Origin: a virus
Length of the DNA: 29,966 nt
IMG/VR virus record: IMGVR_UViG_3300020174_000045
Location: 1 to 29,966 of that record
Reading direction: 5' to 3' (one strand)
Part shown: positions 12,151 through 26,613 of the stretch, one piece after another
How positions within the stretch are numbered: the first letter of the stretch is position 1
Layout of the letters: each line of letters begins with the position of its first letter
Made by a program: the position numbers and the translations under genes
The notes under the pieces: generated by a model
What the model was told of the DNA's origin: nothing
Seen by the model: the letters and a program-made list of their open reading frames with translations, nothing else
Database searches by the model: none

Positions 12151-12616
12151 TAACACAGATGTTCGTGTGTACATTGATCACACAAGTAAATCCCGTATTG
12201 ATGATATGGAAAATATCTTCAGTAATGGTTATCCATTTAATATGATCATCCCAATGCCTGACGATATCTTACGCCACAATCTTACGGCTGAGGATCGTGC
12301 AAAATCTGAGGGACGTAATTGGTACGATTGGTGTGTTGCGAATTGGGGTACAAAGTGGGATGCGTACAATGTTAGTGTACAGCGTTTGTCCGATACATCT
12401 CTGTACGTGATGATGGAGACAGCATGGTCACCACCGATTCCAATCTTTGAGAAACTGGTTGAACTAGGCTTTGATGTGTCTGCCTATTACTTGGATGAAG
12501 GGTATATGTACATCGGTCAATTTGAGTGTGGTGAAGATTTTTACTTTGACGTGAATGAGGAAACTCCCTACAATCTCATTGATGAGTTTGGAATTGAGTT
12601 TAATGAGGAGTGTTAA
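12143..12616 (+). CDS. Api92/YubB-type ferredoxin-like domain protein
   Basis: The 157-aa product contains NWYDWCVANWGTKWDAYN (around residues 60-77), the signature of the ferredoxin-like domain found in Api92-like and YubB-like (DUF1281) proteins of phages and plasmids. The rest alternates beta strands and acidic loops (TAWSPPIPIFEKLVELGF; YYLDEGYMYIGQFECG), in keeping with that fold. The family name refers only to the fold; no iron-sulfur ligands are seen. Its function is unknown. GAGGAG precedes the ATG at 12143; an upstream TTG is less likely. Confidence 0.75.
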   Translation: MPNNTDVRVYIDHTSKSRIDDMENIFSNGYPFNMIIPMPDDILRHNLTAEDRAKSEGRNWYDWCVANWGTKWDAYNVSVQRLSDTSLYVMMETAWSPPIPIFEKLVELGFDVSAYYLDEGYMYIGQFECGEDFYFDVNEETPYNLIDEFGIEFNEEC

Positions 12617-12618
12617 GA

Positions 12619-13575
12619 ATGTGTACTAAGCCATTGAATGTATTGAGTTTGTTTGACGGTATGTCATGCGGACGAATTGCGTTAGATCGTGCGGGTATTC
12701 CAGTTAATGCCTATTACGCATCTGAGATTGATAAGTATGCGATTGAGATCGCCAAGAAAAATTATCCCGATACGATCCATCTTGGTGACGTACGTGGTGT
12801 GAAGGGTGATGACTTGGCATCCATTGATCTGTTGATTGGTGGATCGCCATGCCAAGGCTTTAGCTTTGCGGGTGGTCAGTTGAACTTTGATGATCCTAGA
12901 TCTCAGTTGTTCTTTGAGTTTGTCCGTCTCAAGAATGAGACACAACCCAAGTACTTTCTCTTGGAGAACGTCAAGATGAAAAAGGAGTCTGAGGATATCA
13001 TCTCTGAAATGCTTGGCGTGAAACCGATTGAGATCAATTCTAATCTTGTGTCGGCTCAGAATCGTAAGCGTCTGTATTGGACTAACATTAACTTTGATTG
13101 GAACATTGAAGATCAAAACATCAAACTGAAGGATATCATTGAGCATGGCATTGTGGATCGTGACAAGTCCCACTGTTTGGACGCTAATTATTGGAAGGGT
13201 GGAAACCTTACTTCATACTTTGAAAAGCATCGCCGTCAGTTGGTGTTTAGCGAGGATGGACTATGCCATGTCGGTATGGCTGATGTGAATGGGTACGATC
13301 TGATGAAGCGTGTCTACCATGTGGAAGGTAAAGCACCGACACTTAATGCATGTACTGGTGGTAATCGTGAACCCAAGATCGCAATGGATGAAAAGGTATG
13401 GCGTAAGCTCACACCATTAGAGTGCGAGAGACTACAGACTGTACCTGAAGGATACACTGAGGGTGTGTCTAATACGCAACGATACAAGATGCTTGGCAAT
13501 GGTTGGACGGTAGACGTGATCTGCTGTATCTTTAATGGCCTACGTAATGAGGAGAACTTACAATGTGTAGCATAA
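12619..13575 (+). CDS. C5-cytosine DNA methyltransferase
   Basis: The 318-aa enzyme transfers a methyl group from S-adenosylmethionine to cytosine C5. Motifs are in canonical order: I LSLFDGMSCG (SAM binding), IV GGSPCQGFS with catalytic C78, VI ENV in LLENVKM, VIII QNRKRLYW, then a target-recognition region of about 100 residues, IX LTPLECERLQTVPEGYT and X LGNGWTVDVI. All catalytic elements are intact, so it should be active. It is the only enzyme I recognise in the rightward cassette; no paired restriction enzyme is visible, which favours an anti-restriction or epigenetic role. I chose ATG 12619 with GAGGAG ahead. Target sequence unknown. Confidence 0.95.
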   Translation: MCTKPLNVLSLFDGMSCGRIALDRAGIPVNAYYASEIDKYAIEIAKKNYPDTIHLGDVRGVKGDDLASIDLLIGGSPCQGFSFAGGQLNFDDPRSQLFFEFVRLKNETQPKYFLLENVKMKKESEDIISEMLGVKPIEINSNLVSAQNRKRLYWTNINFDWNIEDQNIKLKDIIEHGIVDRDKSHCLDANYWKGGNLTSYFEKHRRQLVFSEDGLCHVGMADVNGYDLMKRVYHVEGKAPTLNACTGGNREPKIAMDEKVWRKLTPLECERLQTVPEGYTEGVSNTQRYKMLGNGWTVDVICCIFNGLRNEENLQCVA

Positions 13576-15617: not shown

Positions 15618-16226
15618 ATGAATATCGTTAAAGTATCCAAGATGTCCGGTAAGCTTTCAGGCATTCCGGCAATCAACACGAACACTGTCACGAATGAGTT
15701 CTGTATCAAAATGAAAGATACGGACTCAATTTGTGGTTCTTGCTATTCGCATCGCATGTTGAATACCTACCGGAAAAATTGCCAACCGGCTTTTCAGTTC
15801 AACTCTGACATATTGAGTAAATCCGTTTTGATAGAGGATTTTCTACCGGTTATCAATTCCGCATTCTTTCGCTTTAATGGCCATGGTGAATTGATTAACA
15901 TGACTCATTTAATCAATCTGGTGAATATCTGCAAAAAGAATCCGCACACTAATTTTGCTCTTTGGACAAAACGAAAGGATCTTATTAATAAATTGTTTAA
16001 GTATTCCGATTCGTATCATCCACCAAAGAACATGATTTTGATCTATTCCAATCCCAAGATAGATTGCGTACGGATTGAACCACCTAGATACTTTCACAAA
16101 GTATTTAATAACGTTTCGCATGGTGGGTACAAAAACGAAAACTGTACCGGTCAAAAATGCATGGAATGTTTGGCCTGTTACAAAAAGGATTCTGGTATTG
16201 ATTCAATAATTGAGAGAGTGAAATAG
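15618..16226 (+). CDS. Gp88-like cysteine-rich phage protein
   Basis: The 202-aa product resembles the phage Gp88 family: an opening with KMSGKLSGIPAINTNT, then CGSCYSHRML with a CxxC, a middle FRFNGHGELINMTHLINLV and FALWTKRKDL, and a C-terminal CTGQKCMECLACYK cluster. The alternation of strands and helices with conserved N-terminal CxxC and C-terminal cysteines recalls small metal- or Fe-S-binding barrels of phages. The biochemical role of the family is not known. All clustered cysteines are present, so it is probably intact. It follows the acidic gene after one base and is followed after one base by a membrane micro-peptide. Confidence 0.55.
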   Translation: MNIVKVSKMSGKLSGIPAINTNTVTNEFCIKMKDTDSICGSCYSHRMLNTYRKNCQPAFQFNSDILSKSVLIEDFLPVINSAFFRFNGHGELINMTHLINLVNICKKNPHTNFALWTKRKDLINKLFKYSDSYHPPKNMILIYSNPKIDCVRIEPPRYFHKVFNNVSHGGYKNENCTGQKCMECLACYKKDSGIDSIIERVK

Positions 16227-17429: not shown

Positions 17430-17588
17430 ATGGCATATTGTCCAAGTTGTCCAAACAAAGCAGGTTGTAAGGCTGCAGGTAAGTGCGCTAAGACTGGTAA
17501 GAAATTAGCAATGAACGCAGGCGGTATGGCTAAGAAGAAGCCTGCTGTTAAGAAAGCTTACGGTGGAATGGCTAAGAAGAAGAAGTAA
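17430..17588 (+). CDS. 52-aa cysteine- and lysine-rich protein with repeated GGMAKKK
   Basis: ATG at 17430 opens MAYCPSCPNKAGCKAAGKCA, which gives four cysteines in 16 residues (C4, C7, C13, C19) that could bind zinc. The rest contains two near-copies of a tag, NAGGMAKKK and AYGGMAKKK, and ends in lysines. GAGAGGAA precedes the start. It is the first gene of the virion operon. The same Gly-Gly-hydrophobic tag appears in other late proteins of this window. Highly basic short proteins next to packaging genes may bind DNA or be packaged in virions; that is inference. Confidence 0.65.
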   Translation: MAYCPSCPNKAGCKAAGKCAKTGKKLAMNAGGMAKKKPAVKKAYGGMAKKKK

Positions 17589-17593
17589 TCTGA

Positions 17594-17974
17594 ATGACCA
17601 TTGCAAGAGATAGTCGTACAAAAAGCTACATTGACGATGCAACCGTAGACGGTACTGCAGTTACTTTGTACACCTGTCCTTCAAATTGTAAGACACACAT
17701 GTCTTTATTGTACATAGGTAACAGTGGGACAGCCGCTTCAGATATTCAAATAAGTTGGTATCGTGCAGAAGATACAGAGACTCACCAGATCATCGCAGGT
17801 AAGAATTTAGTGGTAGGTGATTATGTACAGTGGTCTGGTGCATTTATTGTATTAGAGCCGGGTGACAACATTACCTTTACTCCCAGTGCAACGGGTGGCG
17901 GTGCAACTCCTCATATTGACTGTTTTTGTACAGTAGAAGAATTCTTCCTACCACAGCAAGCAGGACGAGTGTAA
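17594..17974 (+). CDS. Putative beta-rich virion protein
   Basis: The 126-aa product (MTIARDSRTKSYIDDATVDGTAVTLYTCPS...) consists mostly of short strands: SLLYIGNSGTAASDIQISWY, then VVGDYVQWSGAFIVLEPGDN and FTPSATGGG. This resembles the small beta-sandwich decoration or fibre-attachment proteins of phage heads and tails, in which LEPGD turns are common. No firm family is named. It sits before the terminase genes, among small conserved late peptides. There is no clear ribosome site beyond AGAAGAAG, in the preceding gene. Confidence 0.55.
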   Translation: MTIARDSRTKSYIDDATVDGTAVTLYTCPSNCKTHMSLLYIGNSGTAASDIQISWYRAEDTETHQIIAGKNLVVGDYVQWSGAFIVLEPGDNITFTPSATGGGATPHIDCFCTVEEFFLPQQAGRV

Positions 17975-18159
17975 TGAAAAAGAAACACCCCATGAATGCT
18001 GTGCCGATGGCTAAAGGCGGTCTTTATGAAAATATCCATGCCAAACGGAAGCGTATTGCGGATGGGTCAGGAGAAACAATGCGTAAGCCCGGTAGCAAAG
18101 GCGCACCTACGGCCAAAGCATTCAAGCAAGCCGCAAAGACAGCAAAAAAGAAAAAGTGA
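17974..18159 (+). CDS. Small basic late protein with AKGG tag
   Basis: The 61-aa product begins MKKKHPMNAVPMAKGGLYEN and continues with IHAKRKRIADGSGETMRKPG and a Lys/Ala-rich end. It is strongly basic and low in hydrophobics. I recognise the form as a short peptide that recurs beside terminase genes in marine phages, but it has no known function. It starts on a TAATG overlap with the previous gene and precedes the DUF6321-like gene by ten bases. Confidence 0.65.
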   Translation: MKKKHPMNAVPMAKGGLYENIHAKRKRIADGSGETMRKPGSKGAPTAKAFKQAAKTAKKKK

Positions 18160-18169
18160 GTAAGGAAGA

Positions 18170-18454
18170 ATGGCTACTACAAAGGATGTCGAACGTTTAC
18201 CTTCAGGCCGTATTAAGTATCGTGGAGAAACCTTTTCTGGATACAACAAGCCAAAGAGAACGTCAGGAGGCTCTAAGAAATTTGCGGTTCTTGCGAAGAA
18301 AGGGGACCAGATAAAGCTTGTACGCTTTGGTGATCCAGATATGGAAATTAAAAAAGATAATCCAGAACGCCGTAAGAGTTTTCGTGCAAGGCACAATTGT
18401 GATACGGCAAAAGATAAATTCAGTGCCCGCTATTGGAGTTGCCGCAAATGGTAA
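18170..18454 (+). CDS. DUF6321/DUF5872-like small basic protein
   Basis: The 94-aa product contains the conserved run KFAVLAKKGDQIKLVRFGDP, followed by MEIKKDNPERRKSFRARHNC and a final ARYWSCRKW. This module is widespread in marine phages, alone or fused to virion proteins; its role is not established. The two C-terminal cysteines and many Arg/Lys residues suggest metal or nucleic-acid binding. GGAAG precedes the ATG. Its TAA overlaps the start of the small terminase gene. Confidence 0.7.
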   Translation: MATTKDVERLPSGRIKYRGETFSGYNKPKRTSGGSKKFAVLAKKGDQIKLVRFGDPDMEIKKDNPERRKSFRARHNCDTAKDKFSARYWSCRKW

Positions 18455-18852
18455 TGAACGTTAAAACCTATTTAAATCCTGAGCGTAATTACTCAGACAA
18501 ACAACTATCGTTTTTAGAGGCAATGGCAGGTGACGCTCATGGCAATATTAATTTAGCGTTAAAGATGTCAGAGTACGGTAACGTATCTGCACGTGACGTT
18601 GTTCCGTATTTGCAAGATGAGTTGATTGCTATTGCGGAGCACATCTTAGCATACAATGCTCCAAAAGCTGCATTCGGTATGGTAGGGGTGTTAGACGATC
18701 CTACAGCACTAGGTGCTAAGAACTCAGTTGCTGCGGCAAAAGAAGTTCTAGACCGTGTCGGTATCGTAAAGAAAGAGAAAATAGAAGTATCGTCAGAAGA
18801 TGGCTCAGGATTATTTATCCTGCCTGCTAAGAAAGAGGACGATGAGTCTTAA
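18448..18852 (+). CDS. Putative terminase small subunit
   Basis: The 134-aa product (MVMNVKTYLNPERNYSDKQLSFLEAMAGDA...) lies directly before the large terminase gene. An N-terminal helical domain (YSDKQLSFLEAM, INLALKMSEYG) looks like the DNA-binding part. The distal segment LGAKNSVAAAKEVLDRVGIV followed by KKEK is typical of phage small terminases. It would recognise the packaging site and regulate the motor. I chose ATG 18448, which has GGAG nine bases ahead; ATG 18454, forming TAATG with the previous stop, is equally plausible. Its end overlaps the large subunit gene. Confidence 0.7.
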   Translation: MVMNVKTYLNPERNYSDKQLSFLEAMAGDAHGNINLALKMSEYGNVSARDVVPYLQDELIAIAEHILAYNAPKAAFGMVGVLDDPTALGAKNSVAAAKEVLDRVGIVKKEKIEVSSEDGSGLFILPAKKEDDES

Positions 18853-20857
18853 TTACGACTTCATAGAAGATGAAGGGCTAAGGGGTATCGCTGAAGAGCT
18901 ATACCCTGAATTCGTTATACGAAGTCCCAGAGGTAAGGCGTACCGCCCTTACTTGTATGACAGAATGCCGTATAAAGACCAAGATACGGGCAACGCTGTA
19001 TACAAACTGCGTACAAGTGATTTAGAAATTTTTGTTAAAGCAATGGAAGGCGCACGAAGTGGTGTGTCTTATCGTAAGGTAGCAGATTATCTTGTCTCTG
19101 AAATTGGCGCATCATGCTCTTATCAAAAAGTAGCTGAAGAATTTAAGCTTATTAAGGATAGATTACCTCAATGGGCGGAGACACAGGAGAAAGTTAATAA
19201 CTTTGCCGGCGAAAAGCACTTTACTAAAAAGCAAAATGTAAAAGAAAAGGCTAAAACCAACAAGAAAAAACAACTTTCACGTAAAATGCGTGAGATGGAG
19301 CTTGAACTAAAGCGTATTACCGCTGAAGAAGCCATTGAAGCAGGTAAATTAAGCGAACAAGATGCTCAGAACATTGAGCAATTTGTAAATGAAGGTGGAA
19401 AACTTAAGTCTGACAAACAAATAGAGGTTACCAAAGAGAATTTAGAGGCTGAAGAGCAACAAAAAATTATTTTTCAGCCTAATAAGGGTCCACAGACGGA
19501 CTTTTTAGCATCAGTAGAGCGTGAAGTGCTCTATGGAGGTGCTGCAGGAGGTGGTAAGTCGTACGCACTGCTCGTAGATCCTCTCAGATACGTCTCTAAC
19601 CCTAATTTTAATGGTCTACTACTACGTAGACGCTCAGATGAGCTTAGAGAGCTTATATGGAAGGCTCAAGAGCTATATCCGAAGGTATTTAAAAGCGCAA
19701 GATGGTCAGAGCGCAAATCACAGTGGACGTTCCCTAGTGGAGCGAGACTTTGGTTTACGTATTTGGACAGAGAAGACGATGTACTGCGCTATCAGGGCCA
19801 AGCCTTTACTTGGATCGGGTTTGACGAACTCACTCAACACCCTACTCCATTCGCTTGGGACTACATGCGTTCTCGTTTGCGTACTACAGACTCTAATCTT
19901 CCCCTCTGTATGCGAGCTACCACGAACCCGGGAGGTCCAGGACATGGTTGGGTTAAACAAATGTTTATTGACCCTTCACCTCCCAACAAATCGTTTGTCC
20001 CTCGTGATTTAGAGACAAATGAAGAGTTAAGGTTTCCTGCTAACCACACAAAAGCAGGCGAACCTTTATTTTATAGACGGTTTATACCGGCAACGCTAAA
20101 AGACAATCCGTATCTGTATGTAGACGGAATGTACGAAGCAAACTTGTTGTCAATGCCGGAACAACAACGCAGGCAGTTACTAGAAGGTGACTGGACAATA
20201 GCAGATGGAGCGGCTTTCCCTGAGTTCCGTGTCCATTCGCATACATGCGAGCCATTTGAGATACCGCATAACTGGAGAAAGTTTAGATCTTGTGATTACG
20301 GGTACAGTTCGTTTTCTGCAGTGCATTGGTTTGCAATAGATCCTGCATATGAGACTTTATACGTTTACAGGGAACTGTATGTCTCTAAACACACTGCACG
20401 AGACTTAGCTAGAAAAGTGTTGGAGCTAGAAGCAGGCGAAGACATTAGCTATGGGGTATTAGATAGTTCAACGTGGCATACACGAGGACATACTGGGCCT
20501 TCAATTGCAGAAGAGATGGTTGCAGAGGGTTGTCGATGGAGACCATCAGATAGAACAGGTGGTTCTCGTGTTGCAGGTAAAAACCGATTACATGAACTAC
20601 TAAAAATAGATGAGCAGATTGAACAGCCATCTATTATTTTCTTTAATGATTGCCGACAGATCATTGCAGATCTACAAGTCATCCCTACGGACCCCAAGGG
20701 TACTGATGACATAGATCCAAGATATGCATCCGATCACGCATACGATTCTGTACGGTATGGGATTATGTCAAGACCTAAGTCAAGAAGTTTATTTGACTTT
20801 GGCAACGATTTTAATAAAACAGCATGGAAACCAATGGACCCCGTTTTTGGGTATTAA
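18842..20857 (+). CDS. terL: Terminase large subunit with N-terminal HTH extension
   Basis: This ATP-driven packaging motor and nuclease has 671 residues. Walker A is YGGAAGGGKSYALL (glycine-rich loop near residues 232-239), Walker B is FTWIGFDELTQ, and the coupling motif is RATTNPGGPG. The nuclease domain carries FRSCDYGYSSFS, YGVLDSSTW and DHAYDSVRYG, which place the three metal-binding acids. About 220 residues precede the motor: an HTH-like segment (GVSYRKVADYLVSEIG, then SYQKVAEEF) and a Lys-rich charged coiled region. That extension is long for the family and may bring its own DNA-binding domain. ATG 18842 with GAGGACG ahead overlaps the small-subunit stop. Confidence 0.93.
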   Translation: MSLNYDFIEDEGLRGIAEELYPEFVIRSPRGKAYRPYLYDRMPYKDQDTGNAVYKLRTSDLEIFVKAMEGARSGVSYRKVADYLVSEIGASCSYQKVAEEFKLIKDRLPQWAETQEKVNNFAGEKHFTKKQNVKEKAKTNKKKQLSRKMREMELELKRITAEEAIEAGKLSEQDAQNIEQFVNEGGKLKSDKQIEVTKENLEAEEQQKIIFQPNKGPQTDFLASVEREVLYGGAAGGGKSYALLVDPLRYVSNPNFNGLLLRRRSDELRELIWKAQELYPKVFKSARWSERKSQWTFPSGARLWFTYLDREDDVLRYQGQAFTWIGFDELTQHPTPFAWDYMRSRLRTTDSNLPLCMRATTNPGGPGHGWVKQMFIDPSPPNKSFVPRDLETNEELRFPANHTKAGEPLFYRRFIPATLKDNPYLYVDGMYEANLLSMPEQQRRQLLEGDWTIADGAAFPEFRVHSHTCEPFEIPHNWRKFRSCDYGYSSFSAVHWFAIDPAYETLYVYRELYVSKHTARDLARKVLELEAGEDISYGVLDSSTWHTRGHTGPSIAEEMVAEGCRWRPSDRTGGSRVAGKNRLHELLKIDEQIEQPSIIFFNDCRQIIADLQVIPTDPKGTDDIDPRYASDHAYDSVRYGIMSRPKSRSLFDFGNDFNKTAWKPMDPVFGY

Positions 20858-20868
20858 CAGGTGTATGA

Positions 20869-22971
20869 ATGGCAATTGTAGATAAACCGGAATTTGATAC
20901 CGATGAGGTAATAGCTCTAGAAGACTCTAGAGAAGAGGCAACCGATGTTGAGTATATGCCATTTGTTAGCATTATTCAAGAAAAGTATCAACGTGCCAAA
21001 GACCGCCGATTAACTGATGAACAACGGTGGTTGTTATCTTATAAGAACTATCGTGGAATCTACGACGACTCTACGCAGTTTACGGACAGTGAACGTTCTC
21101 AAATTTTCGTAAAGATTACTAAGACTAAAGTTCTTGCGGCGTATAGCCAAGTAACCGACGTATTATTTGCGGGGAATAAGTTTCCAATTGGTGTTGAAGC
21201 TACACCAGTACCTGAAGGTATTAAAGATACTGTACACATTGATGCTGCAGTTCCAGATCCCCTCAAAGAACTATACGACGAAGTTAACGTAGGTTATGCA
21301 GGTGATGGGAGAGAAGTTCCTGAAGGTGCCGTTACTGCTCGTGACCTTGGACCTATTGCAGATAAAGTTGCCGGTGCCGAAGAAGCGATAAAAGCAGGGC
21401 CAGGAAGCACACCAACAGCGGCTATCTACGAGCCTGCTAAAGAAGCAGCTAAAAACATGGAGCGTAAGATCCATGATCAGCTTGCAGAGTCTGACGGTAC
21501 AAAACATCTTCGGTTTATGGCGTTTGAGCAGTGCTTATTTGGTACAGGCATTATCAAAGGACCGTTTGCTCAGGATGTTGAGTATCCGAAGTGGACAGAG
21601 GACGGAGAATACGATCCTGTAATTCTTACACGCCCTCGCATTGAAGCAGTTTCTATTTGGAACTTCTACCCAGACGCTGACGCATATTCTATGGACGAAG
21701 CTGAACACGTTGTGTATAGGCATCGTATGTCTCGTTCTCAAATGCGTGAGCTAAAAGATCGTCCAATGTTCCGTGACGAAGCTGTAGAACGTGCGCTGAT
21801 GGCAGGAGCCAACTACACAAAGGAATATTGGGAAGATGTTATTGACGACGCAAACTCTGTCAGTGATATTAATCGTTGGGAAGTATTAGAGTATTGGGGA
21901 TACATTGATACAGAGTTAGCTGAAGAAGCAGGTCTTAAACTGCCACGTAAAGCTAAGAAACTCGATCAGATACAAGTTAACGCTTGGGTGTGTGGTAATC
22001 ATATCTTGCGTCTTGTAATGAATCCATTCAAACCTACACGCATTCCTTTTTATGCAGCACCTTACGAATTAAACCCGTATTCTTTCTTTGGGGTTGGTGT
22101 CGCAGAAAACATGGAAGATACACAACATCTCATGAATGGTTTTATGCGTATGGCGGTAGATAACGCCATACTTTCAGGTAACCTGATCTTTGAGGTGGAC
22201 GAGACGAACTTAGTGCCCGGTCAGGACTTGTCAGTGCATCCCGGTAAAGTCTTCCGTCGTCAGGGCGGTGCTCCGGGGCAAGCACTATTTTCTACTAAGT
22301 TCCAGAATGTAGCGCAAGAAAACATGATGCTGTTTGACAAGTCTCGTCAACTAGCAGATGAGTCTACTGGTATCCCTTCATTCTCTCACGGACAAACAGG
22401 TGTTACTGGCGTAGGCCGTACAGCATCCGGTATGTCAATGTTAATGGGTGCGGCTGCACAGAACATTAAGACTGTCGTCAAGAACGTCGATGATTACTTG
22501 CTGTCACCATTAGGTCAAGCAATGTTTGCTTTCAATATGCAGTTTGATTTTGACCCAGAAGCAAATGGCGATCTAGCCGTAATTGCCCGTGGTACTGAAT
22601 CCCTCATGCGTAATGAAATTAGATCTCAAAAGCTCATGCAAATTATGCAGCTAGGTGCTAACCCTGCAATGGCTCCAATGATTAAGTTTGATTACATCTT
22701 GCGTGAGATTGCGGCTTCTCTAGACCTAGATGAAGATAAGATCGTCAATGATCCACGAGAGGCTGCAATACAGGCGGCACTGATGGCTCAATATGCCCCT
22801 CAGCCTTCACCAGAAGGCGCACAACAGCCGCAACAAGGTCAGGAAGGTGTACCTACCCCAGATAACCAAGCAGGGCTAGGAGCGGGTGCTATGGGGCCAG
22901 GAAACGCACCTGAACCGGGAGCAGAGGGATTTAGCCGTCCTGATGCCGCAGGACCGGAGACTATGCAATGA
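20869..22971 (+). CDS. Portal protein, P22-type
   Basis: The 700-aa product matches the large portal proteins of the P22 type in length, in position after terL, and in body: YQRAKDRRLTDEQRWLLSYK near the start, RIEAVSIWNFYPDADAYSMD, NPYSFFGVGVAENMEDTQ and GVGRTASGMSML. Twelve copies would form the DNA channel at one vertex and dock the terminase. A variable insertion of about 80 residues (near 110-190) and a Pro/Gln/Gly-rich tail of about 60 residues after QYAPQPSPEG are probably disordered. AGGTG precedes the ATG. The stop overlaps the next ATG as ATGA. Confidence 0.88.
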   Translation: MAIVDKPEFDTDEVIALEDSREEATDVEYMPFVSIIQEKYQRAKDRRLTDEQRWLLSYKNYRGIYDDSTQFTDSERSQIFVKITKTKVLAAYSQVTDVLFAGNKFPIGVEATPVPEGIKDTVHIDAAVPDPLKELYDEVNVGYAGDGREVPEGAVTARDLGPIADKVAGAEEAIKAGPGSTPTAAIYEPAKEAAKNMERKIHDQLAESDGTKHLRFMAFEQCLFGTGIIKGPFAQDVEYPKWTEDGEYDPVILTRPRIEAVSIWNFYPDADAYSMDEAEHVVYRHRMSRSQMRELKDRPMFRDEAVERALMAGANYTKEYWEDVIDDANSVSDINRWEVLEYWGYIDTELAEEAGLKLPRKAKKLDQIQVNAWVCGNHILRLVMNPFKPTRIPFYAAPYELNPYSFFGVGVAENMEDTQHLMNGFMRMAVDNAILSGNLIFEVDETNLVPGQDLSVHPGKVFRRQGGAPGQALFSTKFQNVAQENMMLFDKSRQLADESTGIPSFSHGQTGVTGVGRTASGMSMLMGAAAQNIKTVVKNVDDYLLSPLGQAMFAFNMQFDFDPEANGDLAVIARGTESLMRNEIRSQKLMQIMQLGANPAMAPMIKFDYILREIAASLDLDEDKIVNDPREAAIQAALMAQYAPQPSPEGAQQPQQGQEGVPTPDNQAGLGAGAMGPGNAPEPGAEGFSRPDAAGPETMQ

Positions 22972-23198
22972 TTCAGTTTGATACTGCCCGTAAGCTTCTA
23001 GCTTTAGTCAATAATAAGCAGAACATGGAACGGCTAGAGGCTTACGTGGTGGATCGCTTAGAGTTCTTGCATAGGGAACTAGAGTCTAAAGACAACATGG
23101 TGGACATTGGCCGCATTCAAGGTCAGATCAGAGAAGTCCGTAGATTACTCACTCTCCAAGATGAAGCCGTGCAGAAGGCTGAAGAAGGTAAGCACTAA
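22968..23198 (+). CDS. Small coiled-coil hypothetical protein
   Basis: The 76-aa product (MIQFDTARKLLALVNNKQNMERLEAYVVDR...) is almost entirely helical and charged, with heptad-like spacing. It is joined to portal by ATGA and to the next gene by TAATG, so the three are co-translated. No family is recognised. Proteins of this size beside portal genes can be head-completion or portal-interacting factors; that is inference from place only. Confidence 0.65.
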   Translation: MIQFDTARKLLALVNNKQNMERLEAYVVDRLEFLHRELESKDNMVDIGRIQGQIREVRRLLTLQDEAVQKAEEGKH

Positions 23199-25081
23199 TG
23201 GCAGAAGACAAACGCCAAGAACTAGAAGCTCAACTTGAAAGTGGCTTAATGTCCCCTGACGAGTTTGATGCTCGTATGGATCAGTTAAATCTTGAAAAGT
23301 CTTTTGAGTTACCGGAAGGTGATGTACGAAGTGACATACTTCCTATTATTTCCAGACAAGATGAGACTGCACAGGGCGGTAAGTTTTTAGATATAGGTAC
23401 TCCAGGATTTATCAAAGATGCGATTGTTCGTGGAGGTGAGATTGTAGCCGATCTACGTTCAGGTAAAACTCCTGATCCTCAGACTGTCACTGAAACCGCA
23501 ATGGATATCGCAGGTACGGGTTTTGGGTCTTCTGCAGTTACCGGTGTTGGTGCAGACATTGCGGGTACTGCTCTAGGGTCTAATGTTATATCAGCAGGTT
23601 CACGCTTTGGTAAAAAGACTCCACAAACGTCTTTTGGAATTGGCGACAGAGTAGCACCTCCTGATGACAGACGTTCAGCTAAAAACGTTAAAGATGTGGA
23701 AGGTAGGGTTGCAGACTTCCACAGTGGGACGAATGCAAAGGTAGATGATATTTACGTAGGTGAAGACGGAAAGACAAAAGTTGTCGTCCGCTACATGAAA
23801 GATACCGACGAGATTGATCCTGAAACTAACACACCTGTATTTGAAGAAGTTACTCAAACCTTTGATGCAGACCAAGCAGAAAAGGCGGGGTTAGAGACTT
23901 TAGTTAAAGGTAAACAACCAGAAATCATACCTGCCAAAATTTTTGACGAAGAGCAAACCGAAAAAGTAAACAACGTGATGTTCAAAGATTACTTTTTTGA
24001 TACCGACGAAGACATTGATCTAGGTAAAGCTGTTGCGGGTGTTCTTTATGAGGCAGGAAAGTTTGACGACATCACGCTAGGTAAAAAGTTTAAAAATACC
24101 AACGGTGAAATTGTTGAAGTAATTGATTTTGATACCGTACCCGCACCTTATCCCACTAAAGAGTTATCAGGTAAGTCAGACCGTATTTATTTTGAAGTAG
24201 GTTTAGACAAACCATTAGGTGTACTTGTTCGCTACAAGAACTTAACAAAAGGCACTGAAGGCAGCGATGTCTTTGATAACTTTAAGGGCGGTAAGTACGA
24301 AGAAGTTACTGGGGAGTTAAAAGCTGTTGAACAACCTAAGACTGGGTTGATGGCAGATGATCTTTCTGCGGCAGAGCCTTTGGAAGTAGGGTTTGACGAA
24401 GCGTTAGCCAGTGGTAAGTTTTTAAAGAACTACGATAACAACGTTGCGACAGAGATGGCAGAACGTGCAAAGACTGCAAGAACTGGTGCCCGTGGTGAAA
24501 CTGATTTGCTTATGGCTGATGTTCCAGAAGGTACCAAAGTAGGTGTTCGTGTTAATTTAAATTCTAAAATTGAAGGAATGCCAAAAGGATTAGATAAGTT
24601 GCAGACTTTGCATAAGGGAACTTACAGCGGAAAGGCAATGTCTTATCAGCCGTATGTTGTACTACGAAACGTAAAGTTTAACGTTAGTCAGCCAGGAAGA
24701 ACTGGAATTGCTGCAAATGCTAAGGGTATTGATACACCAGAAGCCAAGAATAAATTTCCAATATCTAGCGCAGACGGAGAGTATGTACCTAACGCCAATC
24801 TTTTAGAAGGCAATACAGATGATTTGGTAGAGATTGGTTTTAATCCCGTGGACTACCATTTGTTTTATGACTTATCTACGGGGCAAGCCGTAAAGAGTGC
24901 TGACGAAGCAATGGTAATTGGGGATCGTGTGTATGCACGAAATCTTGAATATTGGAAAAAATCAGAAGCACCTGAACCTAAACCTACTAAATCAGGGGTA
25001 GATGTTCCTTCAAAGGTTCGCTTTAAAGAAATGAATGTTGGCGGTTTAATGCTAGATGACTATAACAGGGTTGACACATGA
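23198..25081 (+). CDS. Long late protein with polyvalent-protein-type C-terminal domain
   Basis: The 627-aa product is a mosaic. Residues 5-30 form a SHOCT-like helical hairpin (LEAQLESGLMSPDEFDARMD). Two SH3/KOW-like stretches follow (FGIGDRVAPPDD...; ITLGKKFKNTNGEIVEVIDF). Residues from about 440 to 605 resemble a domain found at the ends of large polyvalent proteins of phages and plasmids: GKAMSYQPYVVLRNVKF, then EIGFNPVDYHLFYDLSTGQA and SADEAMVIGDRVYARNLEYW. The extreme C-terminus is MNVGGLMLDDYNRVDT, a glycine-pair tag shared with other late genes. The role is unknown; a virion or ejected protein is likely from the place between portal and scaffold. Confidence 0.6.
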   Translation: MAEDKRQELEAQLESGLMSPDEFDARMDQLNLEKSFELPEGDVRSDILPIISRQDETAQGGKFLDIGTPGFIKDAIVRGGEIVADLRSGKTPDPQTVTETAMDIAGTGFGSSAVTGVGADIAGTALGSNVISAGSRFGKKTPQTSFGIGDRVAPPDDRRSAKNVKDVEGRVADFHSGTNAKVDDIYVGEDGKTKVVVRYMKDTDEIDPETNTPVFEEVTQTFDADQAEKAGLETLVKGKQPEIIPAKIFDEEQTEKVNNVMFKDYFFDTDEDIDLGKAVAGVLYEAGKFDDITLGKKFKNTNGEIVEVIDFDTVPAPYPTKELSGKSDRIYFEVGLDKPLGVLVRYKNLTKGTEGSDVFDNFKGGKYEEVTGELKAVEQPKTGLMADDLSAAEPLEVGFDEALASGKFLKNYDNNVATEMAERAKTARTGARGETDLLMADVPEGTKVGVRVNLNSKIEGMPKGLDKLQTLHKGTYSGKAMSYQPYVVLRNVKFNVSQPGRTGIAANAKGIDTPEAKNKFPISSADGEYVPNANLLEGNTDDLVEIGFNPVDYHLFYDLSTGQAVKSADEAMVIGDRVYARNLEYWKKSEAPEPKPTKSGVDVPSKVRFKEMNVGGLMLDDYNRVDT

Positions 25082-26613
25082 CTAAAACAGAAGCAGGCGA
25101 AAAAATGAAGAAAGAGAACCCTACTAAGGCTCTCCCAGAAGAAGCAGACATCAACAACGACGGTGAATTCCAAGAGTGGGAAAAAGCTCGTCACGAAGCC
25201 ATTCAAGCAGCTAGAGCATCAGAAAAAGCTGAAATGAACATGGGTGGATTGATGCAAGACGGTATGGGAATTATTGTAGGCATTGAAGAAACTTCAGGTA
25301 ATGAAATCCCTGCGGGTTCTAAGCCCGAAGAAGTGGCTGACGACATTCCTGCGGTGTTATCTGAAGGCGAATACGTAGTACCGGCGGATGTAGTACGGTG
25401 GCATGGTGTTAAAACCTTTGAAAGCCTGCGCTGTGAAGCAAAGATGGGTATGGGTCTAATGGCACAAGACGGACGTATTGCTGAAGTTGACGCAGATACA
25501 AAAGAGCCTGAACAAGAAATAGAAGAAAAAGACAAGCCTAAAGTTGAAAAGGCTGAAGTTAAAGTTGTCGAAGCGGCTGAGGGCGTATCTGTCGAGCCAT
25601 TCTATCAACTAGATTACGTTACAGACCCAATCACTGGTGCCCCTGTAATGGCGTACGTTGATCCTGCAACGGGACAACAAATTAGCCAAGAAGAGTATCG
25701 AGAAGAATTAGCATCTCGCTACGATCCAGAACCGTACCTGCAAAGAGAAGGTTTGCTAGAAAAGCCCGAAAAAGACACAGAAGAAGAGCCTAAGAAAGAC
25801 GAAGAGGCTGACGAAGAGATTACTACGTGCCCTCCTGGTATGTCGTATAACCCCACCACAAAGATGTGTGAGCCTGACGAAGATGGTCAAATGCCTGAAT
25901 CTGAAAGTCTGTTTGATCAAACTCGTGACATGGCAGAAACACTAGGTGCCACTTACGCAGATGATCCAGAAGCTGCATTAGAGCGAGCTACCAGAGAAAA
26001 CAAAGCGTTAGGTGTAAAAACCGCAAGTGGAGCAGGAGCTATTTTTGGAGCACCTGCACTTGGCGTTGTTATCAACGAAGCTGTTCGTTATGCCGATGCT
26101 GTTGGTGCTCAACGTGCATTGTTAGGCCGAGAGCAGTATCTAGGTGTGAGCGAAAATATCCGTGGCGATCAGATAACTGACGGTACTTTCGAGTATGCCG
26201 GTCCACAAACTTATAACTTTACAATGCGGGACGACGGAACAATTGAAGCATCTACTGGCGGTGCCCGTATTTCCGAAATAAGTACAACTGCAGATGGTAG
26301 AAATTGGGTTTCTGATTACACCCACGTAGACAAAGATGGTAATGAGATTGATCCTCTTAAGGATTTTGATGCCTTCTTAGAATCCATCGGAGAAGCTGAC
26401 GAAGACGACGATCCGTATAATCCTTCGGATGTAACTGCCGGACCTAGTACACCCTCTTCCGATAAAGCCACCACGGATGCTCAAAGTGATGCAGCAGCGG
26501 GAGCTAATTACGGCTCTGACGAAGAAGACGTAACTTCTGGATATGAAAAATTAGCTAAAGGCGGATACGTCTCTCGTAAAAACACTCCACGAACAGCAAT
26601 GATTAAGTATTAA
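25078..26613 (+). CDS. Acidic late structural protein with EF-hand-like loop and DDIPAxLSEGEY motif
   Basis: The 511-aa product has several parts. A DINNDGEFQEWE loop near residue 24 fits the 12-position EF-hand/dockerin calcium pattern. A segment DDIPAVLSEGEYVVPADVVR with HGVKTFESLR matches a motif recurrent in marine phage virion proteins. An acidic Glu/Lys linker follows, then a cysteine pair (CPPGMSYNPTTKMC), an alanine/glycine helix near residue 320 (GAGAIFGAPALGVVI), a beta-looking part and a low-complexity Asp/Ser/Thr region. The end is LAKGGYVSRKNTPRTAM. The MNMGGLMQDGMG tag lies near residue 55. It is joined to the previous gene by ATGA. Virion protein by context; exact role unknown. 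Confidence 0.6.
   Translation: MTKTEAGEKMKKENPTKALPEEADINNDGEFQEWEKARHEAIQAARASEKAEMNMGGLMQDGMGIIVGIEETSGNEIPAGSKPEEVADDIPAVLSEGEYVVPADVVRWHGVKTFESLRCEAKMGMGLMAQDGRIAEVDADTKEPEQEIEEKDKPKVEKAEVKVVEAAEGVSVEPFYQLDYVTDPITGAPVMAYVDPATGQQISQEEYREELASRYDPEPYLQREGLLEKPEKDTEEEPKKDEEADEEITTCPPGMSYNPTTKMCEPDEDGQMPESESLFDQTRDMAETLGATYADDPEAALERATRENKALGVKTASGAGAIFGAPALGVVINEAVRYADAVGAQRALLGREQYLGVSENIRGDQITDGTFEYAGPQTYNFTMRDDGTIEASTGGARISEISTTADGRNWVSDYTHVDKDGNEIDPLKDFDAFLESIGEADEDDDPYNPSDVTAGPSTPSSDKATTDAQSDAAAGANYGSDEEDVTSGYEKLAKGGYVSRKNTPRTAMIKY

Follow-up and report, generated by a model that had tools for sequence, protein, structure and literature searches.

Short peptide signals are known to load proteins into phage or phage-like particles. 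The capsid targeting sequence of phage T4 comprises about 10 residues common to otherwise different internal proteins and is sufficient for foreign proteins to enter the head (PMC9958956); as the original work states in its title, it permits proteolytic processing. In the PVC contractile injection systems, a short signal on unrelated effector payloads allows loading into a phage-like particle (PMC11495950); these signals are N-terminal, and the loading into the tail tube is aided by an ATPase. Phage polyvalent proteins are of great size, combine several domains, including variable enzyme domains, and have been proposed to enter the cell with the DNA (PMC5512222). For tape measure proteins, a role as envelope channels has been proposed, and cleavage close to the C-terminus is known from those of the phages T5 and lambda, in the T5 protein after Arg1127 and not at a Gly-Gly site (PMC10038345).

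The window is the whole stretch of DNA analysed here, a virus record of 29,966 bases. Replication genes oriented leftward occupy its left half, and late genes oriented rightward occupy its right half: terminase (18800), portal (20869), two large proteins (23198 and 25078), a scaffold-like protein (27034), and coat (28081). The source is an uncharacterised marine phage of the HMO-2011 type, and the order portal, module protein (25078), scaffold, and coat is that of HMO-2011-like genomes. The protein search of 50,697 phage records matched the 25078 protein only to Puniceispirillum phage HMO-2011, Roseobacter CRP phages, and one spring-water podovirus. A further 80 loci homologous to the module protein were taken from IMG/VR. 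HMO-2011-type phages have been described as dominant in the ocean, with a broad distribution there (PMC9038755).

Several late proteins of the window carry copies of one seven-residue short linear motif, roughly F/M-N/A-x-G-G-L-M. The tag consensus is [G]-[F/M/L/Y]-[N/A/K]-x-G-G-[L/M/I/V/F/Y]-[M/V/A], and C-terminal copies are usually followed by lysines. The initial annotation had quoted near-identical tags in four late genes, and every quoted string was present in its gene. A position model for the tag, fixed beforehand from 255 contexts in relatives outside the clade of the window, was used to score every Gly-Gly site in 44 window proteins. The five main tags were the top five sites, in the order MNVGGLM (23198 protein, aa 612), MNMGGLM (25078 protein, aa 53), MNAGGMA (17430 protein), MAKGGLY (17974 protein), and LAKGGYV (25078 protein, aa 492). 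Their scores ranged from 8.6 to 6.5, and the sixth Gly-Gly site scored 1.4. The late proteins of the window contained 5 tag matches versus 0.5–0.9 in shuffles (p of 0.003 or less), and its early and middle proteins contained no site above the threshold of the model. The bare GG[LMYV] count in the window was not significant (7 vs. 4.4, p = 0.14), which indicates that the context of the tag decides. The codons differ among the copies; this rules out a DNA-level repeat or recombination seed and indicates that the tag is conserved as protein. No published description of the tag was found in the open-licence literature.

The best site, MNVGGLM (25031–25051, +), lies in the 23198 protein, 11 residues ahead of its final residue, and is kept in L008, L010, and L011. 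The second best, MNMGGLM (25234–25254, +), lies ahead of the module in the 25078 protein; its Gly-Gly is invariant in 9 close relatives, and it had low confidence in the AlphaFold2 model and is probably unstructured. MNAGGMA (17511–17531, +) ranked third and belongs to the 52-aa Cys-rich basic protein of the 17430 gene, with M..GGM[AT]KK in the relatives L179–L181. The claimed near-identity did not extend to the second copy in this protein, KAYGGMA (17553–17573, +) at the C-terminus, which has a spacing one residue shorter than that of the main tag and a low model score, although KAYGGMAKK is kept in L179–L185. The fifth site, LAKGGYV (26551–26571, +), lies in the 25078 protein at 15 residues from its C-terminus, ahead of a basic tail, and agrees with the C-terminal tag profile of 46 relatives. 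The end of the 25078 alignment conserves [AN]KGG[MY], and the linker ahead of it is not conserved.

The fourth site, MAKGGLY (18007–18027, +), lies within the start of the conserved G-LYANI domain of the 17974 protein, which belongs to the family phrog_16028. The first Gly of the pair is usually another residue in this family, and GG is present in 6 of 25 members. Because only one Gly is conserved, MAKGGLYEN, which the initial annotation had listed as a tag, is probably a look-alike, and full membership is ruled out for most of the family. Among 1177 ORFs of other marine phage contigs of the 17974 type, the motif occurred 37 times versus 29 (max 47), without clear enrichment. These contigs thus gave no sign that the tag is enriched across marine phage proteins in general, and the signal is specific to some families.

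The absence of conservation in relatives had been set beforehand as the result that would speak against the tags, and conservation was found. The pattern [FMLY][NASKD]xGG[LIMVFYA] occurred in 178 copies in 84 module proteins, compared with a shuffle mean of 12 (max 24); the ratio counts more than the p-value here because the 84 sequences are related. The tags recur at four places: FNKGGAVM ahead of the module, FMNEGGIxDD immediately before it, GFNEGGxV after it, and G[FLY][NA]KGGL[MV][SK]KKKK at the terminus. In 46 relatives, the conservation of the C-terminal tag starts sharply at −4 and persists as far as the basic tail, at a distance of 7–27 residues from the terminus, and the 15 residues upstream are conserved near background level.

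Early and late proteins were compared in HMO-2011, CRP-1, CRP-3, CRP-9, CRP-235, CRP-603, and the window. The tags were not equally common in early proteins, which had 1 match in 28,329 aa (2.4 expected, thus under the shuffled mean), whereas all late proteins had 38 matches in 74,228 aa. Without the module protein, the late proteins still had 28 matches in 69,115 aa versus 10.7 expected (max 23), and the module proteins had 10 matches in 5,113 aa versus 0.9 expected. The proposed position at or near a terminus was correct for many carriers: a C-terminal tag was present on 13 of the 18 separate interval proteins, which lie in the portal–scaffold gap of split genomes (0.07 expected), and on 39 of 85 module proteins. 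Some tags are internal, and some module proteins lack the tag that precedes the module or the terminal one. None of 253 portal, capsid, terminase, and scaffold proteins had a C-terminal tag, so the idea of a signal on virion proteins in general was not borne out. HMO-2011 (L002, gp49), L009, L012, L033, and L034 have no C-terminal tag on the module protein; their module proteins finish in other C-terminal segments of different build, which may stand in for it.

The 23198 and 25078 proteins had been taken as unrelated carriers, but they correspond to the halves of one protein in relatives. A single fused ORF lies between portal and scaffold in HMO-2011, CRP-3, CRP-9, and ctYwJ313, and the gene split of the window falls between two tags. 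Genomes in which a stop codon splits the fused gene keep the now redundant tag 3–20 residues from the new C-terminus. The front part of the fused protein is variable, with a methyltransferase-like domain besides a cell wall hydrolase in CRP-3 and an L5 gp82-like domain (PF25735, E = 4e-7) in the window, at aa 443–580 of the 23198 protein (23198–25081, +), the variable payload between the portal and the module protein. This front is replaced by unrelated proteins in other relatives, and the interval proteins form mutually unrelated groups, represented by the window, L028, L030/L036, and L035. The centre of the fused protein is a nearly invariant module, DPVSGNEVPxGSxxEEVRDDIPAxLSEGEYVVPADVVRYxGV (54 sequences), and the rear is a fast-changing linker. 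A 649-aa interval payload, L036:7862-9811 and L084:7862-9811, differs much in the middle between these two close relatives and keeps the start and the C-terminal tag.

The module protein of the window (25078–26613, +) consists of a tag, a tape-measure-type module, a long variable linker, and a C-terminal tag. The module itself (GNEIPAGSKPEEVADDIPAVLSEGEYVVPADVVRWHG..., 25294–25464, +) is predicted to be a small folded unit, probably related to tape measure proteins. The AlphaFold2 model gave a pLDDT of 80–86 for the module core and placed the tag outside the fold at a pLDDT below 50. The tag as a part of the folded module was rejected as the main reading on this ground and because several relatives have the module without a preceding tag. 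The model of the full-length 25078 protein was too poor for use (mean pLDDT 36). No solved structure matched the module by sequence or by fold; Foldseek found no match in the PDB, and tape measure matches in BFVD appeared only at E = 0.6 or worse. Between the two tags at the gene split lies a segment (DINNDGEFQEWEKARHEAIQAA, 25147–25215, +) with an EF-hand- or dockerin-like calcium-binding pattern, DINNDGEFQEWEKARHEAIQ, which is conserved in the clade of the window and in CRP-3.

The module matched 17 PHROG families (best E = 2.5e-6), and tape measure proteins make up 11 of these. In six tape measure proteins, one of them lambda gpH, GF[AS]xGG[YF]TG precedes a GE[FY]V stretch, after which comes GYAxGG[YLV]VG or a close variant; the Gly-Gly pairs of the two gpH tags are at aa 736–737 and 781–782. 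These six lambda-like proteins share the tag–module–tag order with the module protein of the phage. The direct profile comparison of the module with the lambda-like set was weak (hhalign E = 0.008, probability 5%), and homology of the module with the C-terminal region of tape measure proteins is likely but not proven. The module protein differs from them in its place between portal and scaffold, outside a tail block, in a phage that groups with podoviruses. The whole 25078 protein is not a tape measure protein by its features: those are long coiled proteins of siphovirus or myovirus tail gene blocks, and it has 511 aa and lies between portal and scaffold of a phage with a P22-type coat, outside a tail block.

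The tag is conserved at the protein level, is restricted to late genes, lies in variable or unstructured regions or at the C-terminus, and occurs on carriers that are otherwise unrelated. A docking motif fits these properties, because the tag is short, outside the fold, often terminal, on unrelated proteins, and conserved as protein but not in its codons. We tentatively suggest, as the best explanation, that the tag is a putative docking label that puts ejection-type cargo on a shared virion partner. Each copy would insert a hydrophobic-Gly-Gly-hydrophobic peptide into a pocket of one common partner in the virion. The cargo would comprise the module protein, the small basic peptides, and the variable portal–scaffold payloads, such as wall hydrolases and the methyltransferase-like domain. 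Tagged cargo may collect in the prohead close to the portal and exit with the DNA. In podoviruses, the tag–module–tag cassette could correspond to the one that tape measure proteins, which are likewise ejected, carry close to their C-terminus. The literature searched contained no mass spectrometry of virions of HMO-2011-type phages.

Among the loading signals already known, the T4 capsid targeting sequence is the closest analogue of the proposed docking motif. The likeness is a short sequence on mutually unrelated proteins, which in T4 are internal proteins and here are putative virion proteins. The T4 sequence is N-terminal, whereas the tag is repeated, mostly internal or C-terminal, and N-terminal as well; it is not confined to the N-terminus as a T4-type sequence is, and no prohead protease was seen. 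Because the position differs, we do not assign the tag to the T4 type. It is also unlike the PVC signals, given their N-terminal position and the ATPase-aided loading into the tail tube. The fused protein resembles the polyvalent proteins in its size, multidomain build, and variable enzyme domains; a search of PMC5512222 found mention of neither HMO-2011 nor a Gly-Gly tag.

The tags could instead be structural hinges, in which a Gly-Gly turn with hydrophobic flanks separates domains or self-associates and needs no dedicated partner. The tags stand at the borders of the payload, the EF-hand-like segment, the module, and the linker, and small basic proteins made almost only of repeated tags would suit self-association. 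In most comparisons, tags sharing a genome also showed no greater similarity than tags of separate genomes (A–B p = 0.93, B–D p = 0.93; two of six with p about 0.02, uncorrected). This lack of co-variation suits a hinge and counts against docking: the co-variation expected if each phage had its own pocket was not found in most comparisons, no sign of co-evolution with a changing pocket was seen, and the pocket, if it exists, is conserved. However, a plain linker needs neither the residue pattern from −3 to +3 nor a place 7–27 residues from the C-terminus of unrelated proteins, and we consider the hinge unlikely. Gly-Gly-x sites are processed in the polyproteins of adenovirus and African swine fever virus, and the initial annotation had offered docking, packaging, or processing as the role of the tag. 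Docking or packaging fits best. Cutting after Gly-Gly during head or tail maturation would suit the tags between domains and the gene split of the window between two tags, and near-C-terminal cuts are known from the T5 and lambda tape measure proteins (PMC10038345). The sole mapped site that we found in a tape measure protein, that of T5, is not Gly-Gly (PMC10038345). Split genomes retain tags with nothing left to cut, and cuts at terminal tags would remove only 7–27 residues. Among the late proteins of HMO-2011 and the CRP phages scanned with Pfam (not every protein), no SUMO-type or C39 peptidase was present, and the only peptidase-like domain was S74. Because redundant tags are kept, many tags lie too close to a terminus, and the T5 site is not Gly-Gly, cleavage is less likely than docking and appears improbable.

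The tag may also act after ejection and not in assembly, for example by entering the cell envelope with its lysine tail. The basic tail after the tag, the wall hydrolase domain of CRP-3, and the occurrence of the tag in tape measure proteins, the proposed envelope channels (PMC10038345), are in line with such a role. Tags also stand beside soluble enzyme-like domains and on 50-aa Cys-rich peptides, which are not obviously membrane-active, and we regard this role as quite improbable. Chance or the compositional bias of Gly-rich proteins would explain the unremarkable bare GG[LMYV] count in the window and the counts in the 1177-ORF control. All context-aware tests were against it, and the ranking by the out-of-clade model refuted it, which leaves it extremely improbable.

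If the docking label is real, a particle-marking signal would account for the block of unannotated genes that lies between those for portal and scaffold. Late "hypothetical" genes could then be annotated from sequence alone, and chosen proteins could be loaded into laboratory phage particles. The signal would bear on how HMO-2011-type phages load and deliver proteins. The link with tape measure proteins would give a testable function to the conserved, unexplained stretch near the C-terminus of lambda gpH. A wider reading is possible but rather doubtful: a general cargo-loading code of virions, in which one Gly-Gly motif across podoviruses and tape measure proteins captures unrelated enzymes for ejection and payloads are swapped in front of it, as in effectors.

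Tags were also seen in other late proteins of the relatives. The HMO-2011 gp25 family (700–1140 aa; L002:505-2625, L176:19718-23002, L004:7681-10746, L178:22491-25916, and L005:5864-8455) has a conserved 45-residue segment, MGYxGxMxxFxxYLxxxP, which is often followed by a tag, and the CRP-3 member has a Peptidase_S74 domain at its end. Upstream of the terminase are very small basic peptides, often with Cys, that consist of nearly only repeated GY(N/M)xGGM units and a CGAS motif (L046:2709-2870, L050:4316-4576, L068:760-933, L075:2-280, and L084:2287-2448). The 17430 gene belongs to this group and is built largely of tags. Elsewhere in the window, a C-5 cytosine DNA methylase gene (12610–13575, E = 1e-48) was annotated in the middle region, and a protein with a T5orf172/MUG113 (GIY-YIG-like) domain at the left end (30–644). 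The region 15618–16226 had a weak Pfam match to GP88 (E = 0.004), a domain that is strong in HMO-2011 gp01.
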